From positions 1-31,539 of IMG/VR virus record IMGVR_UViG_3300030943_001853: a stretch of 31,539 nucleotides of DNA, one strand, 5' to 3'. The notes beneath the pieces are model-generated. The model had not been told where the DNA came from. It saw nothing but the letters and a program-made list of their open reading frames with translations, and ran no database searches. The position numbers and the translations under genes are program-made. The stretch is from a virus. Numbering within the stretch: the stretch's first letter is position 1; each line of letters opens with the position of its first letter. Of the stretch, positions 3,620-28,637 are shown in pieces.

Positions 3620-3937
3620 TTATTGCATAAAGTGAGGCACCACCGGGTACACATCGTAATAAGCATCAACCTCCAGTTCGCGAGCAGCGTTTTGCTTCAC
3701 GCTGTTAACGGTCATTCCATCCTGTATAAACTTCCTACGAACAGTCCGGAGCATTGCTTCAGGAGCTTCATCGTTCAAAAAGTCGATAATCCCCACTCCA
3801 GTGGTTGGTGAATGCTTCAATTCACCCATACCCGTGAGGATCAGGTCGCGCTGATGAGCCACCGTACTTTCCACGTAATGCAGATCACCGCCCGTCAGAT
3901 CAATATCACCATCATATTTTTGTCGAAAATCTTTCAT
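3620..3937 (-). CDS. Baseplate wedge protein, gp25/gpW-like
   Basis: A 105-residue member of the gp25/gpW lysozyme-like baseplate family (Mu gp46 type). Visible are DIDLTGGDLHYVES near the N-terminus, a central helix with RDLILTGMGELKHSPTTGVG and a C-terminal helix-strand segment (MLRTVRRKFIQDGM). The family initiates sheath polymerisation at the baseplate. Its place beside gpX-, gpJ- and spike-like genes agrees. Confidence 0.8.
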   Translation of the reverse strand: MKDFRQKYDGDIDLTGGDLHYVESTVAHQRDLILTGMGELKHSPTTGVGIIDFLNDEAPEAMLRTVRRKFIQDGMTVNSVKQNAARELEVDAYYDVYPVVPHFMQ

Positions 3938-9501: not shown

Positions 9502-9663
9502 TTATTTTGGATTCAAATGTTTTTCGAGCCACTCAACGTCCTTGGCCATCATCGCCCATTCGTGATCCGACAGTTTGTTTGGATCGGTGTACAAGTAGTG
9601 CCTGATAAGAGTGTTTGTTTGTCTCAGGTAATCATTGCCCACATCGGCGGTGGCCTCTAGTAG
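9502..9663 (-). CDS. Tail assembly chaperone, -1 frameshift extension
   Basis: Open -1 frame entered from the slippery site at 9663-9669. After the slip the ribosome reads CTA at 9663-9661 and continues for 53 codons to TAA at 9502-9504, bypassing the zero-frame TAG at 9657-9659. Residues begin LLEATADVGNDYLR and end VEWLEKHLNPK. The fused product would be 201 residues (148 + 53), the analogue of lambda gpGT. No start codon or leader lies at the beginning of this frame, so translation by frameshift is the simplest reading. It fills the only gap between chaperone and tape measure. Confidence 0.8.
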   Translation of the reverse strand, partial: LLEATADVGNDYLRQTNTLIRHYLYTDPNKLSDHEWAMMAKDVEWLEKHLNPK

Positions 9664-10106
9664 TTTTTTAAGGTGGCGGTTTTTATTTTAATCAGGTTTC
9701 CCAATATGGCATTTGCCGCGAGGAACAAGTCATCGTTAGTCTTAATGTGTTCATCGCCGCCGAGCCAACAGTTTTCAAGGATCAGCTCGCCAAACCGGAT
9801 CGGGTCTTTACCACCGACTGCGGTAGCCATCGAGATAACTTTGCGGCTAGGTTTTTTTAGGTAAGCCCTTACTATTGTTGCTTCAATTTTGAGCATATTG
9901 GCTTTTAACTCGACATCTTCCGGCGTGTCACCTTCAGGAACAACAAATTCAGCCACATGATCTTCAGCATCCTCTTTCTCTTCGAAAATTTGACCATCGT
10001 AAGTTTTAAAACTGGTTTCGATCTCAAGGATTTGTACTTTGCCATACAGTTTTTCCCAACCGGCAATATCCTCCGGTGTCGGATTGGTAATATTTTCTTT
10101 TTTCAT
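9657..10106 (-). CDS. Tail assembly chaperone (gpG-like, zero frame)
   Basis: A 149-residue acidic protein encoded between tail tube and tape measure, where tailed phages encode the tail assembly chaperone that coats the tape measure during tube assembly. It ends with ATLKNY, whose codons contain the slippery heptamer A AAA AAC (9669-9663). A fraction of ribosomes should slip -1 there and add 53 residues. Function rests on position, size and the frameshift; sequence resemblance was not tested. Confidence 0.8.
   Translation of the reverse strand: MKKENITNPTPEDIAGWEKLYGKVQILEIETSFKTYDGQIFEEKEDAEDHVAEFVVPEGDTPEDVELKANMLKIEATIVRAYLKKPSRKVISMATAVGGKDPIRFGELILENCWLGGDEHIKTNDDLFLAANAILGNLIKIKTATLKNY
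9663..9669 (-). promoter_or_regulatory. Slippery heptamer A AAA AAC (-1 frameshift)
   Basis: On the minus strand codons TTA AAA AAC precede TAC TAG. The last A of TTA plus the next two codons form the X XXY YYZ heptamer. Both tRNAs can re-pair after a -1 slip. A weak stem (CCAC pairing with GTGG) lies about 12-25 bases downstream. Tail-chaperone frameshifting is conserved across tailed phages. Confidence 0.8.
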
Positions 10107-19211: not shown

Positions 19212-20432
19212 ATGGCAACCAAAGCAGCAGAATACGCAATCAAAATAGCATCGTACGACCGCACGAACAAAGATATTTCGAAGTGGAAACAAGCCCTTAA
19301 ATCGGCTGAAGACCCCGACTATCCCGACCGCTCGAAACTCATGAACCTTTATCATGACATCATGCTCGACGGTCACCTGACGGCCATTACAGAAAAACGG
19401 ATACTCAACATTTTGAATACTCCGCTGATCTTTCAGGCTAAAGGAAAAGAAAACGAGCTGGTTGCCGACCTTATCGAAACTGAAGCATTTGAAAATTTGC
19501 TCCGGTACATTATCGAATCAAAGCTGTACGGTTATTCGTTGTGTTGGGTCGATATTACCCAACCTGGAGTGAGCACGCCAAAGGTAACCCTGATTGACCG
19601 CCGCCACGTGGAGCCAACCCGGCATAAGTACAAATACAAGGAAAGTGACTCGCTGAATGCCGGAATAGATTACACCCTTCCACCTTACCCGCCATACACC
19701 CTAATCGCTGGCCGTGAAGATGATTTGGGATTGTTGCTGAAGTGTGCGCCTTATGTGATTTACAAGCGTGGAGATGTTGGTGATTGGGCAACCTTCTGTG
19801 AAATATTCGGCATCCCGCTCCGGGTCGGAAAATTCCCGGCTCATGACAGCAACGCACGGAAAGAGTTAAATGAGGCAATGGACGAGACCGGGTCGGCCAA
19901 CTCAATCACCATGCCTGACACGTGCAGCATCGACTTTGTAGAAAATAAAACTTCACAAAGCGGCAAGGGGGTGCATGAAACTTTTGCAGACTGGTGCAAC
20001 AACGAAATGAGTAAAATCATTTTGGCAAATACTATGACTGTTGATGCCCAGGGAGGAAACTACAAAGGCGAGGTACACGCCGAAAGTGAAGAAGGTATTT
20101 TTGAGGCTGACCGGCGGTTTGTCATTCGAATATTAAATACCCAAGGGTATAATCTTCTTGAATTACACGGATACAATCCGGGGGAAGGGTCATTTAAGTA
20201 CGTTGATGAAGATTCAGTCCCAATGAAAGACCGTGTTGAGATTGACACAAAACTGAATGACGTTATAGAGATTGATCCGGAATATTTCTATGACCGTTAT
20301 AATGTGCCACGCCCTAAAACAGGAGCAAAAGCACGGGAGCCAAAGGCAGCGGCAACACCGCCAAATGCAATACAAAAGCTATCGGATTCAAACGATGGCT
20401 TTTTAAAACGCCTGGCTGATTTTTTCGCCTAA
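19212..20432 (+). CDS. Portal protein (Mu gp29-like, DUF935)
   Basis: A 406-residue DUF935 portal. Diagnostic segments include MNLYHDIMLDGHLTAITEKR, LLRYIIESKLYGYSLCWVDI, VGDWATFCEIFGIPLRVGKF and the region around ANTMTVDAQGGNYKGEVHAE. It forms the DNA-entry dodecamer of the capsid. The C-terminus is a linker ending RLADFFA. The codons for its last D-F-F contain a -1 slippery heptamer followed by a hairpin, giving a predicted 838-residue fusion with the next gene. Confidence 0.9.
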   Translation: MATKAAEYAIKIASYDRTNKDISKWKQALKSAEDPDYPDRSKLMNLYHDIMLDGHLTAITEKRILNILNTPLIFQAKGKENELVADLIETEAFENLLRYIIESKLYGYSLCWVDITQPGVSTPKVTLIDRRHVEPTRHKYKYKESDSLNAGIDYTLPPYPPYTLIAGREDDLGLLLKCAPYVIYKRGDVGDWATFCEIFGIPLRVGKFPAHDSNARKELNEAMDETGSANSITMPDTCSIDFVENKTSQSGKGVHETFADWCNNEMSKIILANTMTVDAQGGNYKGEVHAESEEGIFEADRRFVIRILNTQGYNLLELHGYNPGEGSFKYVDEDSVPMKDRVEIDTKLNDVIEIDPEYFYDRYNVPRPKTGAKAREPKAAATPPNAIQKLSDSNDGFLKRLADFFA

Positions 20433-20454
20433 GCCCCGGTCGTGATCCCGGGGC
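20420..20454 (+). promoter_or_regulatory. Probable -1 frameshift signal, portal to gp30-like
   Basis: The heptamer T TTT TTC at 20420-20426 is in the right phase (codons GAT TTT TTC). It is followed by a 6-base spacer (GCCTAA, including the portal stop) and a perfect 7-bp stem GCCCCGG/CCGGGGC (20433-20439 with 20448-20454, 8-base loop). This is the standard geometry of programmed -1 frameshifting. The -1 frame is closed by TGA at 20417-20419 just before the heptamer and open from there through the next gene. No T tract follows the stem, arguing against a terminator. Confidence 0.65.
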
Positions 20455-21727
20455 GATCATAAATTTATATGATGGGCTGACTGATGATACAATTACATTA
20501 GCCGAAGGTGATTCTGATTTTATTGATTCGCTCATTGATCCGGTATTGAATGATATTTACAAAGGCGTTGCCACCACTATCCCATACGAACTATACCAGT
20601 TCACCGCTTACGGACTGTGGCAGTCATATAAAAAAGGGTACGGAAAAGAGCTATATGGCGCGGACTGGACGGTTAACGATACAGAGTTGATCAACCGTGT
20701 GCAAAACAACTTCTTTTCGTTCAGCGGGGCTAAATCGTTCGACGAAATGATGGCTTTGCGCGATGCGGTTTATCAGGACGGCAAGATTGTGCCGTTCAGC
20801 AAATTCAAAGAAAAGGCTTTCGGGATCAATAAAAAATACAACGGCCAATACCTCGAAGTTGAACGGCAGCAAGTGATGCGCGCCGGAACGATGGGAAGTC
20901 TGTGGGTTGATATTGAAGCCGATAAAGACCGGTACCCATATCTGAAGTATGTTACCCGCGAAGACAGCCGTGTGCGTGAAGCCCACCAGTCGTTGAACGG
21001 TTTGATTTACCCGGTCGATGATTCGTTTTGGAACTCATATTATCCACCAAATGGCTGGCGTTGCCGTTGCACCGTTCAAAAACTGAGCGAACGCGACTAT
21101 AACCACCAGAAACCAAAAGACCAACCCGACAGCGAACAGGCGCAAAAAATTGCAGGGAAAACCACGCCCAAAGAATTCCGCAATAATGTGGGTACTTCGG
21201 AGGTGTTTACCAAAGACGGTCACCCTTATTACAAAGCCAGTAAAGATGCCGCTGAAAAGCAACTATCGGCCACCAAGCACTACGGAATGCGCACTTCGGT
21301 TGAAGTGTATAACAATCCTTCGAAACTGGCCAGTTATCAGGGTAGCATTACCAACAGGCAGGATTACGAAAACTTGTGGAAAGAATGTCAGGGAGCGAAC
21401 GGAACGTTTACTCTGACCGACAAACGGCTAGATATTACGGCCAAATTCGACCAAGCACTTAAACAAAAGATGTTGGATAAAGACCGATACCAGTATTTTG
21501 ATGAAGCGGCCAATGTCTTCGGAAAACCTGATGAAGTGTGGGGCATTTTTAAGGGGGCAAAAACACACCTCGGAAAAGAGTTTTTCAATACTTACATCAA
21601 ATACTATGATGATAAGCCAATTGTAATGTTGGTAAACAAACAAGGTAGGGTTGATAGCTTCTATAAGCTGGAGTCAATAAAACAGGTTGAAGATTTCAGG
21701 GTGGGAGTATTAAAATACAAAAAATAA
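20420..21727 (+). CDS. Minor head protein, Mu gp30-like (MuF), probably frameshift-expressed
   Basis: The open frame encodes a MuF/gp30-type head morphogenesis protein. It has GAKSFDEMMALRDAVY, QQVMRAGTMGSLWVDI, EDSRVREAHQSLNGLIYPVD and YPPNGWRCRCTVQKLSERD, which are hallmarks of that family, then a C-terminal domain of about 170 residues ending with VEDFRVGVLKYKK. No ATG or GTG occurs in frame between the upstream stop (20417-20419) and the conserved region; the first usual alternative is TTG at 20546. Yet upstream codons read plausible protein (AIINLYDGLTDDTITLAEGD). A portal-gp30 fusion made by -1 frameshift explains this. A TTG start giving 393 residues remains possible. Confidence 0.85.
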   Translation, partial: FFRLSPGRDPGAIINLYDGLTDDTITLAEGDSDFIDSLIDPVLNDIYKGVATTIPYELYQFTAYGLWQSYKKGYGKELYGADWTVNDTELINRVQNNFFSFSGAKSFDEMMALRDAVYQDGKIVPFSKFKEKAFGINKKYNGQYLEVERQQVMRAGTMGSLWVDIEADKDRYPYLKYVTREDSRVREAHQSLNGLIYPVDDSFWNSYYPPNGWRCRCTVQKLSERDYNHQKPKDQPDSEQAQKIAGKTTPKEFRNNVGTSEVFTKDGHPYYKASKDAAEKQLSATKHYGMRTSVEVYNNPSKLASYQGSITNRQDYENLWKECQGANGTFTLTDKRLDITAKFDQALKQKMLDKDRYQYFDEAANVFGKPDEVWGIFKGAKTHLGKEFFNTYIKYYDDKPIVMLVNKQGRVDSFYKLESIKQVEDFRVGVLKYKK

Positions 21728-26290: not shown

Positions 26291-26593
26291 TTAAGTGAAT
26301 AAGTATCTTTCGTTTTCTACTATTATCGTTGTTGTGAAAGGAAACCCGTCTTCAGGAATCTGTTGTATCATTTCCCGCAAACCGCTGGACGAGGTGAATA
26401 CGATGTGATTTTCGTCCTTAAACGATATTTGAAGTTTTAAACATTTGCTTGATGAGCCTTTAAAGCATTTTGAATCTTCAATTTTAAAATGATGAACTAC
26501 GATTTCGCGGTTAAGTATTTTCGACATTTTTATTTTGTCGCCAACAAATGATTGTGATGTGATTTTTATATTGAATTGGTCAAAGCTTTTCAT
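26291..26593 (-). CDS. Small beta-rich protein coupled to reverse transcriptase
   Basis: A 100-residue protein whose start overlaps the reverse transcriptase stop (ATGA, 26590-26593), so the two are translationally coupled. Beta strands alternate with charged loops (VGDKIKMSKILNREIVVHHF, CLKLQISFKDENHIVFTSSS, PFTTTIIVENERYLFT), compatible with a small barrel. There is no Avd-like helical bundle. The coupling makes it a candidate DGR accessory factor; an ordinary phage role is equally possible. Family not assigned. Confidence 0.65.
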   Translation of the reverse strand: MKSFDQFNIKITSQSFVGDKIKMSKILNREIVVHHFKIEDSKCFKGSSSKCLKLQISFKDENHIVFTSSSGLREMIQQIPEDGFPFTTTIIVENERYLFT

Positions 26594-27540
26594 GCAAGCA
26601 ATTTCTTTAAGAGGTTTTTACTGTTACAATGCGCTGCCCAACCGTTATAACTGGCTATCGACTTTGCATTTCTATTTTTCTTCAGCATTCGTGCAAAATT
26701 CTGTTTAATTGATTTTCGTAAAAGTGTGTGCGTATGAAAAAAGACATAGCCAACGAAGTCAATACCTCTTTTTTCGACCGGAAATACCTGATAGTTTCCC
26801 TTAACCGTCAGTTTCAAATTATCCTGAAGGTATGTCCTGATTTCAGCAAGTAAGCCGTGCAAATAAGGCTTGGAGTCGGAAAGTACCACCAGATCATCAG
26901 CATACCGGAAGTAATATTTAACCTGCTTTTCTTCCTTCAGCCAGTGATCAAAATAAGTCAGATAGAAATTAGCCAGGTATTGTGATAGGTAGTTTCCTAT
27001 AGGCAACCCTGAAGTACTATCTATAATTTCATCCAGCAACCACAATAGGTCATTGTCTTTAATCTTCCGGCGCAGCAATTGTTTTAACGTGTCGTGATCA
27101 ACCGAAGGATAAAACTTCTTTACATCCAGCTTTAAGCAATACCGGGTATTTTCAACATCGTTTAAAGCCCGTTTAACTGCCCTTGCGGCGGCATGTATGC
27201 CTTTTCCTTTTATACATGAGTAAGTGTCTGTTGTGAAAGTTGAGACAAATACAGGCTCCAAAATATTCATCACCGCGTGATGGGTGATCCTGTCAGGGAA
27301 GTATGGCAGCCGGAAGATGATTCGTTCTTTTGGCTCGAAGATCGTAAACGTTGTGTATGGCGATGTCTTGTAAGTTTTGTTCACCAACATTTCGTGCAGT
27401 TGCTGAATGTTTGCTTCGCGGTTTTTGTCGTGTTGAATCACTCCAGGTTGTTTTGCTTTTCCTTTCCGCGCAACGGCATCAGCCATCTGAAGGTTTTCGA
27501 TGCTGCTGATTATATCGTACAAATTATTGATCCGTTTCAT
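26590..27540 (-). CDS. DGR reverse transcriptase
   Basis: A 316-residue reverse transcriptase of the diversity-generating retroelement type. Motif A has CLKLDVKKFYPSVD with Asp139. The DGR-typical motif GLPIGNYLSQ is at 178-187, where group II intron and retroviral enzymes have a QG form. The catalytic YADD is at 213-216 (YFRYADDLVVLSD) and RGIDFVGYVF at 258-267 is motif E-like. No maturase or endonuclease domain exists, and the length is near that of Bordetella phage DGR enzymes (about 330). With the TR transcript it makes adenine-mutated cDNA that replaces the VRs. It lies 97 bases downstream of the TR, in the same direction. Confidence 0.95.
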   Translation of the reverse strand: MKRINNLYDIISSIENLQMADAVARKGKAKQPGVIQHDKNREANIQQLHEMLVNKTYKTSPYTTFTIFEPKERIIFRLPYFPDRITHHAVMNILEPVFVSTFTTDTYSCIKGKGIHAAARAVKRALNDVENTRYCLKLDVKKFYPSVDHDTLKQLLRRKIKDNDLLWLLDEIIDSTSGLPIGNYLSQYLANFYLTYFDHWLKEEKQVKYYFRYADDLVVLSDSKPYLHGLLAEIRTYLQDNLKLTVKGNYQVFPVEKRGIDFVGYVFFHTHTLLRKSIKQNFARMLKKNRNAKSIASYNGWAAHCNSKNLLKKLLA

Positions 27541-27616
27541 GCCTTTGCTTTTAAAAGATCGTTTTCACTTTCGTTACCAACGCTCTTGAAAATGTGTTAT
27601 TTTTTGCCATGTGGGC

Positions 27617-27744
27617 AGGGTTTATGCTGCGAACTATGCAATTGCGCGAACTGACATTCGTATTCGTGTAGTTGTAATTCGAATTCGAATTCGAGAAACT
27701 GGAACCTGAAGACAAAACTGACAGCACTTGCAGCATACAACCTT
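27617..27744 (-). ncRNA. DGR template RNA cassette with closing stem
   Basis: The TR is enclosed by an inverted repeat: TATGCTGC (27623-27630) and GCAGCATA (27730-27737) are perfect complements. After one bulged base (27738), GGTT (27619-27622) pairs with AACC (27739-27742), with two further pairs outside, 14 pairs in all. The transcript (minus strand) would form a stem holding the TR as a loop. DGR template RNAs are known to need flanking structure. A 60-residue open frame across it is only the TR read as protein. Confidence 0.6.
27638..27718 (-). repeat. DGR template repeat (TR)
   Basis: An 81-bp template repeat. On the minus strand it reads as LSSGSSFSNSNSNYNYTNTN followed by VSSRNC; 21 adenines (T on plus) lie in 14 codons. 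Aligned to VR1 (offset 195), 16 of 21 adenine sites differ and all 60 other sites match. Aligned to VR2 (offset 616, over 79 bases), 15 of 21 differ and all other sites match. This adenine-only pattern is the DGR signature. Confidence 0.97.
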
Positions 27745-27751
27745 ATTTTAT

Positions 27752-28168
27752 TTATTCGGAATACAAGAAGTAATCGACGTACTCAGCCTCAAATTGCTCT
27801 GCGATGTACCTGGCCTTTTCCGATGAATCGGTGCAAAGGCGCGAACCGACAGCCGTACGCGTGCAGTCGTAAGTCGAACCCGAACCCGAGAAACCGGAAC
27901 CCGAAGACAAAACCCCAAACCAAGGGAAGTACTTATACTGATCATCATCACTCCAATCAGGCTTCCATCCATTATTAATCGCTTTGTAAATAATCATGAG
28001 CTTGTAAGCGGCTAATAACGGTTTTCTGAACTCTTCGGGGATCATTGACAGATCAGGAACGCTTGCCTGATCGATGTTCAACTGTGTGCAAGCATCTTCG
28101 AAAGTTTTGATAGTCCTGAAATCAAATTCGACGCTGTCTTTTTCTACATTTTTTGGTGTTGTAGTCAT
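27752..28168 (-). CDS. DGR target protein 1
   Basis: A 138-residue variable protein. The conserved N-terminal part has RTIKTFEDACTQLNI (19-33) and WKPDWSDDDQYKYFPWF (68-84). The variable repeat covers residues about 86-112 (LSSGSGFSGSGSTYDCTRTA, then VGSRLC). Unusually, about 26 conserved residues follow (SSEKARYIAEQFEAEYVDYF), so the VR is not at the extreme C-terminus. DGR target proteins commonly use a C-type-lectin fold for variability; the GSRLC end recalls that, but the fold is unproven. No signal peptide or transmembrane helix. It ends 34 bases before the TR. Ligand unknown. Confidence 0.9.
   Translation of the reverse strand: MTTTPKNVEKDSVEFDFRTIKTFEDACTQLNIDQASVPDLSMIPEEFRKPLLAAYKLMIIYKAINNGWKPDWSDDDQYKYFPWFGVLSSGSGFSGSGSTYDCTRTAVGSRLCTDSSEKARYIAEQFEAEYVDYFLYSE
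27820..27831. other. Short palindrome at the 3' border of VR1
   Basis: CCGATGAATCGG forms a 4-5-bp hairpin one base beyond the VR1 end (27833). In the Bordetella phage DGR a hairpin just downstream of VR promotes retrohoming. VR2 has only a weaker, wobble-containing counterpart at the same place (about 28240-28253). Confidence 0.5.
27833..27913 (-). repeat. DGR variable repeat 1 (VR1)
   Basis: An 81-bp copy of the TR, in frame in target 1. It differs at 16 positions, each a TR adenine. Changed plus-strand TR sites are 27642, 27643, 27652, 27657, 27658, 27663, 27664, 27669, 27673, 27678, 27684, 27685, 27690, 27691, 27700 and 27707. Confidence 0.97.
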
Positions 28169-28172
28169 GTTC

Positions 28173-28637
28173 TTAGTTGTTGATAGTTAAAAATTGTTTG
28201 TATAATTCATTGAATTGCTTTGCGGCATAGTTGCTCTTTTCCTCAGACTCGAAGCAAAGGCGCGAACCGACAGTCGTAAACGCGGAGTTGTAAACCGAAG
28301 ACGAATCCGAGAAACCGGAACCCGAAGACAAATTAAACCACGGCCAGTATTTGTACTGACTTTTATTGTCCCAGTCAGGAACCCACCCCTGATTAATTGC
28401 TGTCACAACAATTTTAAGTTTCTTATAGGCGGCTTCATCAGGTGTATCATTTTCCTGAATTACAGTTTCAGGATCAATGCCCAATTCCTCACAAGCATCT
28501 TCGAATGTTTTGATGTCATCAAAGTTTCGTTTCTTGAAAAATTCCTCTCCAACTGATTCTTCTAAAACTTTCCGACCCCATTCTGTTGATTCTATGTGGA
28601 GCCTTTTTACTTCTGATCTTTTAAGTTTTAATTTCAT
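28173..28637 (-). CDS. DGR target protein 2
   Basis: A 154-residue paralogue of target 1, directly upstream with 4 bases between. It has an extra basic N-terminus (MKLKLKRSEVKRLHIES), then the shared DIKTFEDACEELGI (41-54) and WVPDWDNKSQYKYWPWF (85-101). The VR covers about 102-128 (LSSGSGFSDSSSVYNSAFTT, then VGSRLC) and a conserved helix-like tail (EEKSNYAAKQFNELYKQF) follows. Tandem duplication lets one TR diversify two proteins. Soluble by appearance; cellular or virion location cannot be read from sequence. Confidence 0.9.
   Translation of the reverse strand: MKLKLKRSEVKRLHIESTEWGRKVLEESVGEEFFKKRNFDDIKTFEDACEELGIDPETVIQENDTPDEAAYKKLKIVVTAINQGWVPDWDNKSQYKYWPWFNLSSGSGFSDSSSVYNSAFTTVGSRLCFESEEKSNYAAKQFNELYKQFLTINN
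28254..28332 (-). repeat. DGR variable repeat 2 (VR2)
   Basis: A 79-bp copy of the TR, in frame in target 2. It differs at 15 positions, all TR adenines (plus-strand TR sites 27642, 27643, 27652, 27657, 27663, 27664, 27667, 27669, 27678, 27679, 27684, 27685, 27691, 27700, 27707). The changes mostly differ in base from those in VR1. Confidence 0.97.

Follow-up and report, generated by a model that had tools for sequence, protein, structure and literature searches.

The portal is the ring through which DNA passes into a phage head; the head can also contain a few copies of an internal protein, and how the right ratio between the two arises is poorly understood. The junction of two head genes in a virus record of IMG/VR (the whole 31.5-kb stretch, called the window below) raises the question of whether such a ratio could be set during translation, one head protein being made as an occasional extension of the other. 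The window carries a Mu-like head module, in which profile searches identified the terminase, a gp36-like protein (PF07030), the portal (PF06074) and MuF (PF04233).

Anatomy of the portal-MuF junction

The Mu-type (gp29-like) portal gene occupies positions 19212..20432 of the plus strand, on which all features of the junction lie, and its zero-frame product is a protein of 406 aa ending in ...LADFFA*. It covers the entire Pfam profile PF06074 (Portal_Mu; positions 1-336 of 336, E 4e-72) and also matches PHROG 113 (portal). The 3' end of the gene reads GAT TTT TTC GCC TAA, so that a potential slippery heptamer, T TTT TTC (20420..20426), stands in phase with the portal frame and is followed by a G (20427). 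A spacer of 6 nt (GCCTAA, 20427..20432), which includes the portal stop codon TAA, separates the heptamer from a putative stimulatory hairpin of 7 bp with an 8-nt loop (20433..20454); its arms are GCCCCGG (20433-20439) and CCGGGGC (20448-20454), and its predicted RNA minimum free energy, -15.9 kcal/mol, lies at z = -2.3 among dinucleotide shuffles. A sequence-only reading of the window had described the heptamer, the spacer and the GC hairpin correctly to the base. The junction recurs base for base in L002 and L003, two IMG/VR contigs whose sample identifiers differ from that of the window, and an assembly error is therefore an unlikely source of it.

The -1 frame is closed by a TGA (20417..20419) just 5' of the heptamer and is then open from 20420 through the entire gp30-like gene to the stop codon at 21725-21727, as the same reading had stated. 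The MuF region proper (20426..21727) encodes 433 aa beginning with RLSPG, adjoins the portal and matches PF04233 (Phage_Mu_F; E 5e-14, 53.4 bits against a cut-off of 29.6). Its C-terminal third matches the PBECR2 nuclease-like domain PF18810 (E 5e-7, 30.3 bits against a cut-off of 27.1), PBECR2 being a Barnase/EndoU/ColicinE5-D/RelE-like nuclease domain. Polymorphic toxins in which a toxin-type domain lies C-terminal to MuF have been described (PMC5576092), and a frameshift at this junction would join a putative toxin to the portal.

The first start-like codons of the MuF frame in the window are a TTG at 20546, 40 codons in, a GTG 91 codons in and an ATG 107 codons in; neither ATG nor GTG occurs in the first 90 codons, which bears out the earlier remark that the gene lacks both near its start. 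Read through the heptamer in the -1 frame, the portal and MuF parts (405 + 433) add up to a predicted fusion of 838 residues, the length that had been proposed. The junction thus combines an in-phase X_XXY_YYZ heptamer, a stable structure within the range of about 5-9 nt usual for programmed -1 ribosomal frameshifting (spacer of 6), and an overlapping -1 open reading frame that encodes a known protein without a start of its own. Transcriptional slippage is typically recognized by homopolymers of about nine or more A/T, and the run in the window is T6.

Conservation of the heptamer and hairpin among relatives

As scans with single proteins for close relatives returned near-identical contigs only, relatives were gathered from phage records and with a portal alignment searched against viral contigs and GTDB genomes. 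An in-phase TTTTTTC is present at 113 of the 160 readable junctions with both genes, whereas the bodies of these portal genes, 48,000 codons in total, contain it in phase 3 times. Three more loci without a clean MuF frame (L074, L105 and L146) carry TTTTTTCG, a stop codon and a hairpin or hairpin-like arms. After dereplication of the TTTTTTC sites to 90, the base following the heptamer is a G in 89, the hairpin begins 5-6 nt 3' of the heptamer in 82, and the hairpin is more stable than its own dinucleotide shuffles (p < 0.05) in 97%. The frequency at junctions relative to portal bodies, together with the hairpins that surpass their shuffles, excludes a chance origin of the signal. Its retention in relatives, which the sequence-only reading had put forward as a check, is accordingly found in most of them, for the hairpin as well as for the heptamer.

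The stem pairs covary: in two gapless alignments CG, GC, UA and AU occupy the same positions, 100% of the cells are paired, and double changes number 13 and 9 in the respective subsets. The covariation score was reached by none of 500 shuffles in either alignment, and slid registers do not come near it. As a held-out set, 2.9 million viral contigs were searched with a pattern that took no account of homology; of the 101 sites obtained, 98 lie in phase within genes for Mu-type portals, and two of the three exceptions are near the end of their locus, with little sequence upstream.

Sorted by the position of the portal stop codon, the loci (ARRANGEMENTS) fall into classes Ia, Ib, Ic and II. The stop lies within the spacer in class Ia (25 loci, including the window and its nearest kin L101-L103), 6-20 nt further on in class Ib (14 loci) and beyond the hairpin in class Ic (27 loci, including hankyphage); in class II (23 loci, among them those of Porphyromonas, Bacteroides clarus and Parabacteroides chinchillae) portal and MuF are fused in frame. 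The hairpin covaries across these arrangements, whether it follows the portal stop or forms part of the portal ORF or of the fused ORF. Its position with respect to the heptamer is kept even though MuF is encoded in different frames in classes I and II, so that protein constraint alone cannot account for the hairpin. In 24 of the 27 class Ic loci the short portal ends in Trp (e.g., L006, at 2541), and the -1 tail of the fused relatives also has a conserved Trp; this residue is a possible shared C-terminal docking residue.

A GC hairpin at a gene boundary might in principle be a transcription terminator or a processing site beside which the heptamer is incidental. We consider this improbable to the point of being negligible: the same hairpin persists where portal and MuF form one long in-frame ORF, and the stem is not followed by a T tract on either strand, nor does it form a terminator-like site. 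A comparison with Rfam gave no family at gathering level for the hairpin, the weak sRNA matches falling below the gathering score.

MuF could instead be translated alone, by internal initiation or by termination-reinitiation at the portal stop (for instance from TTG 20546), with no fusion being made. In hankyphage and some relatives an ATG or GTG in the MuF frame does overlap the portal stop, and free MuF could be made there as well. Yet in 29 of the 66 dereplicated -1 loci the MuF frame has neither ATG nor GTG over the stretch that begins at the shift site and reaches into the part matched to MuF. Residues of MuF common to relatives lie upstream of any start: L102 and L103 have in common with L101 an N-terminal MuF segment, including a Cys-rich motif, that precedes any start-like codon. 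Independent translation would, moreover, leave the in-phase heptamer, the covariation of the hairpin and the existence of in-frame fused relatives unexplained, and we regard it as very unlikely to be the whole account.

Relatives with ordinary start codons and no heptamer, which would speak against the frameshift, are confined to a few distant ones (Mu, Pseudomonas and Vibrio phages, and some Winoviridae). Separate portal and MuF genes of the ordinary kind are seen in few relatives (L009 and L013; Mu, LPB1 and martha 12B12), and in the outgroups Mu, LPB1, martha 12B12, mushu, RS1, POA1180 and QH16 the annotation shows portal and MuF as ordinary genes that adjoin or overlap.

At some loci the place of T TTT TTC is taken by T TTT TTT, or by A AAA AAG and a hairpin downstream of it, and at 19 junctions it is taken by A/T runs of at least nine (9-11, mostly exactly 10), a kind of run absent from 144,000 nt of portal body. 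Such runs are typical of slippage by RNA polymerase, and in the fused genes that carry them a slip into either of the other frames meets a stop codon within about 16 codons. The in-frame fusions with T10 or A10-A11 runs (L025-L028, L046, L067, L070, L079, L084, L090, L122 and L150) are therefore probably cases of transcriptional slippage giving a truncated portal, and this process probably applies to the A10/T10 lineages. That polymerase slippage on the T run, and not the ribosome, changes the frame at the heptamer-bearing junctions deserves very little credence: T6 is short for efficient slippage by polymerase, and the X_XXY_YYZ phase, the fixed hairpin spacing of 5-6 nt and the exchange for A AAA AAG with a hairpin are needed by tandem tRNA slippage but not by a polymerase. 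Three loci (L023 at 4226, L033 at 4126 and L038 at 4204) have a T6/T7 run and a hairpin at the end of the portal with MuF in the +1 (or -2) frame; since a -1 tandem slip does not give that frame, they count against a simple scheme, and may be read as a different shift or as slippage.

Conservation, phase, spacing, hairpin covariation and the many relatives without a MuF start together strongly support the proposal that a programmed -1 ribosomal frameshift yields a portal-MuF fusion. From the comparative sequence evidence, a widespread frameshift of this kind, producing portal and a portal-MuF fusion, is very probable. The signal sits at the portal-MuF junction of most related Bacteroidota phages examined, hankyphage included, and is common in gut Bacteroidota phages; the records that we inspected annotate the locus otherwise, as two genes (hankyphage, Elizabethkingia), with a late-starting MuF, or as one plain fusion (Porphyromonas).

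In-frame portal-MuF fusions and a predicted reversed polarity

The sequence-only reading had cast the fusion as the minority product. A fusion made by the shift is what the window predicts, but this does not hold generally: at about one quarter of the dereplicated sites the zero frame itself encodes the portal-MuF fusion, and the heptamer and hairpin are still kept. In all 23 of these class II loci the -1 frame ends after 15-30 codons, as against 22% at control positions. The -1 tail of 15 of the 23 contains the motif [WF]x[SN][PQ]H (hereafter W-x-S-P-H; shuffled mean 0.002), which is absent from the other two frames of class II and from class I, and in 14 of these 15 loci it lies 1-4 residues before the -1 stop. 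Among 14 new fused loci from the homology-blind held-out search, 11 have the tail motif.

The fused relatives might be suspected of carrying mere relics, or of owing the heptamer and hairpin to a protein motif (FFxxAPxxGA), with no shift taking place there; an FF..AP..GA stretch does recur in the zero-frame protein. We judge this improbable, if somewhat less so than the alternatives weighed above for the -1 loci, on the grounds that W-x-S-P-H is preserved by synonymous changes in the -1 frame only, lies close to the -1 stop and is replicated in previously unseen loci. The -1 codons for Ser, Pro and His vary mostly synonymously (AGC/TCA/TCT/TCG/TCC, CCN and CAT/CAC, respectively), and the zero-frame codons that overlap them change nonsynonymously. 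This codon pattern is the clearest sign that the -1 frame of class II is translated and that a short portal is wanted; in these loci the -1 shift should make a short portal with a conserved C-terminal tail.

Such a polarity resembles that of E. coli dnaX (tau/gamma), where the zero frame gives the long protein and a -1 shift gives a truncated one with a short tail. The likeness lies in the polarity predicted for the in-frame fused relatives; dnaX is, however, an unrelated gene, and here both polarities occur in one gene family. On a quick maximum-likelihood portal tree, at least six gains or losses of the fused T6C state fall on supported branches; portal and MuF may have recombined, and no direction of change was inferred from the tree. 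The two polarities thus appear to have been swapped several times within one family, which suggests a substantial shift rate, high enough to serve either polarity. What is conserved, to judge from these comparisons, is the pair of products and not which frame is the default. In the two polarities taken together, one recoding element appears to give the long product in some loci and the short one in others, which would be seldom seen in nature.

Proposed mechanism and precedents

Ribosomes translating the portal mRNA would come upon U_UUU_UUC and, about 6 nt 3' of it, a GC hairpin, and some of them would slip back by one base, presumably through tandem slippage of two Phe tRNAs. The slipped ribosomes would bypass the portal stop and continue through MuF, giving two proteins that share the portal domain, the portal itself and portal-MuF (838 aa in the window). 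Because both products share that domain, they could enter one ring, so that MuF would be built into the portal ring instead of being recruited to it, and the shift rate would fix the fraction of portal subunits bearing a MuF arm. Anchoring of MuF at the vertex and the setting of its ratio by the frameshift, both suggested by the sequence-only reading, are what we infer from this arrangement. On balance we lean towards the broader picture of a mixed portal ring in Bacteroidota Mu-like phages, in which the frameshift rate sets the number of MuF-armed, sometimes toxin-bearing, subunits, and in which lineages have repeatedly inverted the default frame and exchanged ribosomal for transcriptional slippage while keeping both products. 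The ratio would then be written into the mRNA, where it could be tuned and measured. Mass spectrometry of hankyphage virions has been matched to the annotated genome in a study whose main text mentions neither a frameshift nor the portal (PMC12135933).

Several known systems are close to this proposal. The -1 frameshift of the lambda G/GT tail assembly chaperones and their relatives likewise has its X_XXY_YYZ heptamer close to the 3' end of a gene for phage morphogenesis and yields a second, C-terminally extended product, but it concerns another gene pair with another role (tail chaperones preceding the tape measure); in the literature searched we found no description of a reversal of polarity of this kind for frameshifts of the lambda G/GT type. 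The same UUUUUUC heptamer has been reported for SPP1 gene 17.5 (PMC6316719). Capsid frameshifts of T7 (gene 10A/10B), Listeria phages and Lactobacillus phage A2 also use recoding to provide a structural capsid protein with a C-terminal extension; there, however, the major capsid protein receives a short extension, and here the portal would receive a whole second head protein. Genetic portal-MuF fusions place the same two domains in one polypeptide (Microbacterium phages EA/EB, PMC7302621, the Porphyromonas phage 'portal' and PHROG 35074). They were described as plain gene fusions, with no recoding reported; in those of Porphyromonas the recoding signal described above is present.

For RcapMu, an alphaproteobacterial Mu-like phage, the depositors of record JN190960 noted a short portal, a 'possible +1 frameshift' and a MuF without a good start. 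In this genome (L182, positions 3660-3705) the portal ends with CTACAAAAAAAAGCCTGA. It has an A run and no T TTT TTC with a hairpin, and the remark is a one-line annotation note for which we found no accompanying analysis; RcapMu may indicate that portal recoding extends beyond Bacteroidota. The earlier surmise that portal-MuF gene fusions are known and the frameshift form is not agrees with the open-licence literature, in which we found no paper on a portal-to-MuF frameshift or on its reversed form; the PRFect paper does not mention the portal. Tail-chaperone and capsid frameshifts of phages and plain portal-MuF gene fusions are thus already known, and the portal-to-MuF frameshift and its reversed form are new as far as that literature shows.

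Two other elements of the window may be mentioned. A tail-assembly-chaperone-like gene on the minus strand (9657-10106) ends in TTA AAA AAC TAC TAG, with an in-phase A AAA AAC heptamer at 9669-9663, and its -1 frame (LLEATADVGNDYLRQ...LNPK*) has no stop until shortly before the gene for the tape measure; a second -1 frameshift, resembling that of lambda G/GT, is likely here. Further along, also on the minus strand, the region 26590-28637 contains a reverse transcriptase (RVT_1) that adjoins three 120-nt repeats (27597-27716, 27792-27911 and 28213-28332) located in small paralogous ORFs, an arrangement that is possibly a diversity-generating retroelement or a retron-like cassette.
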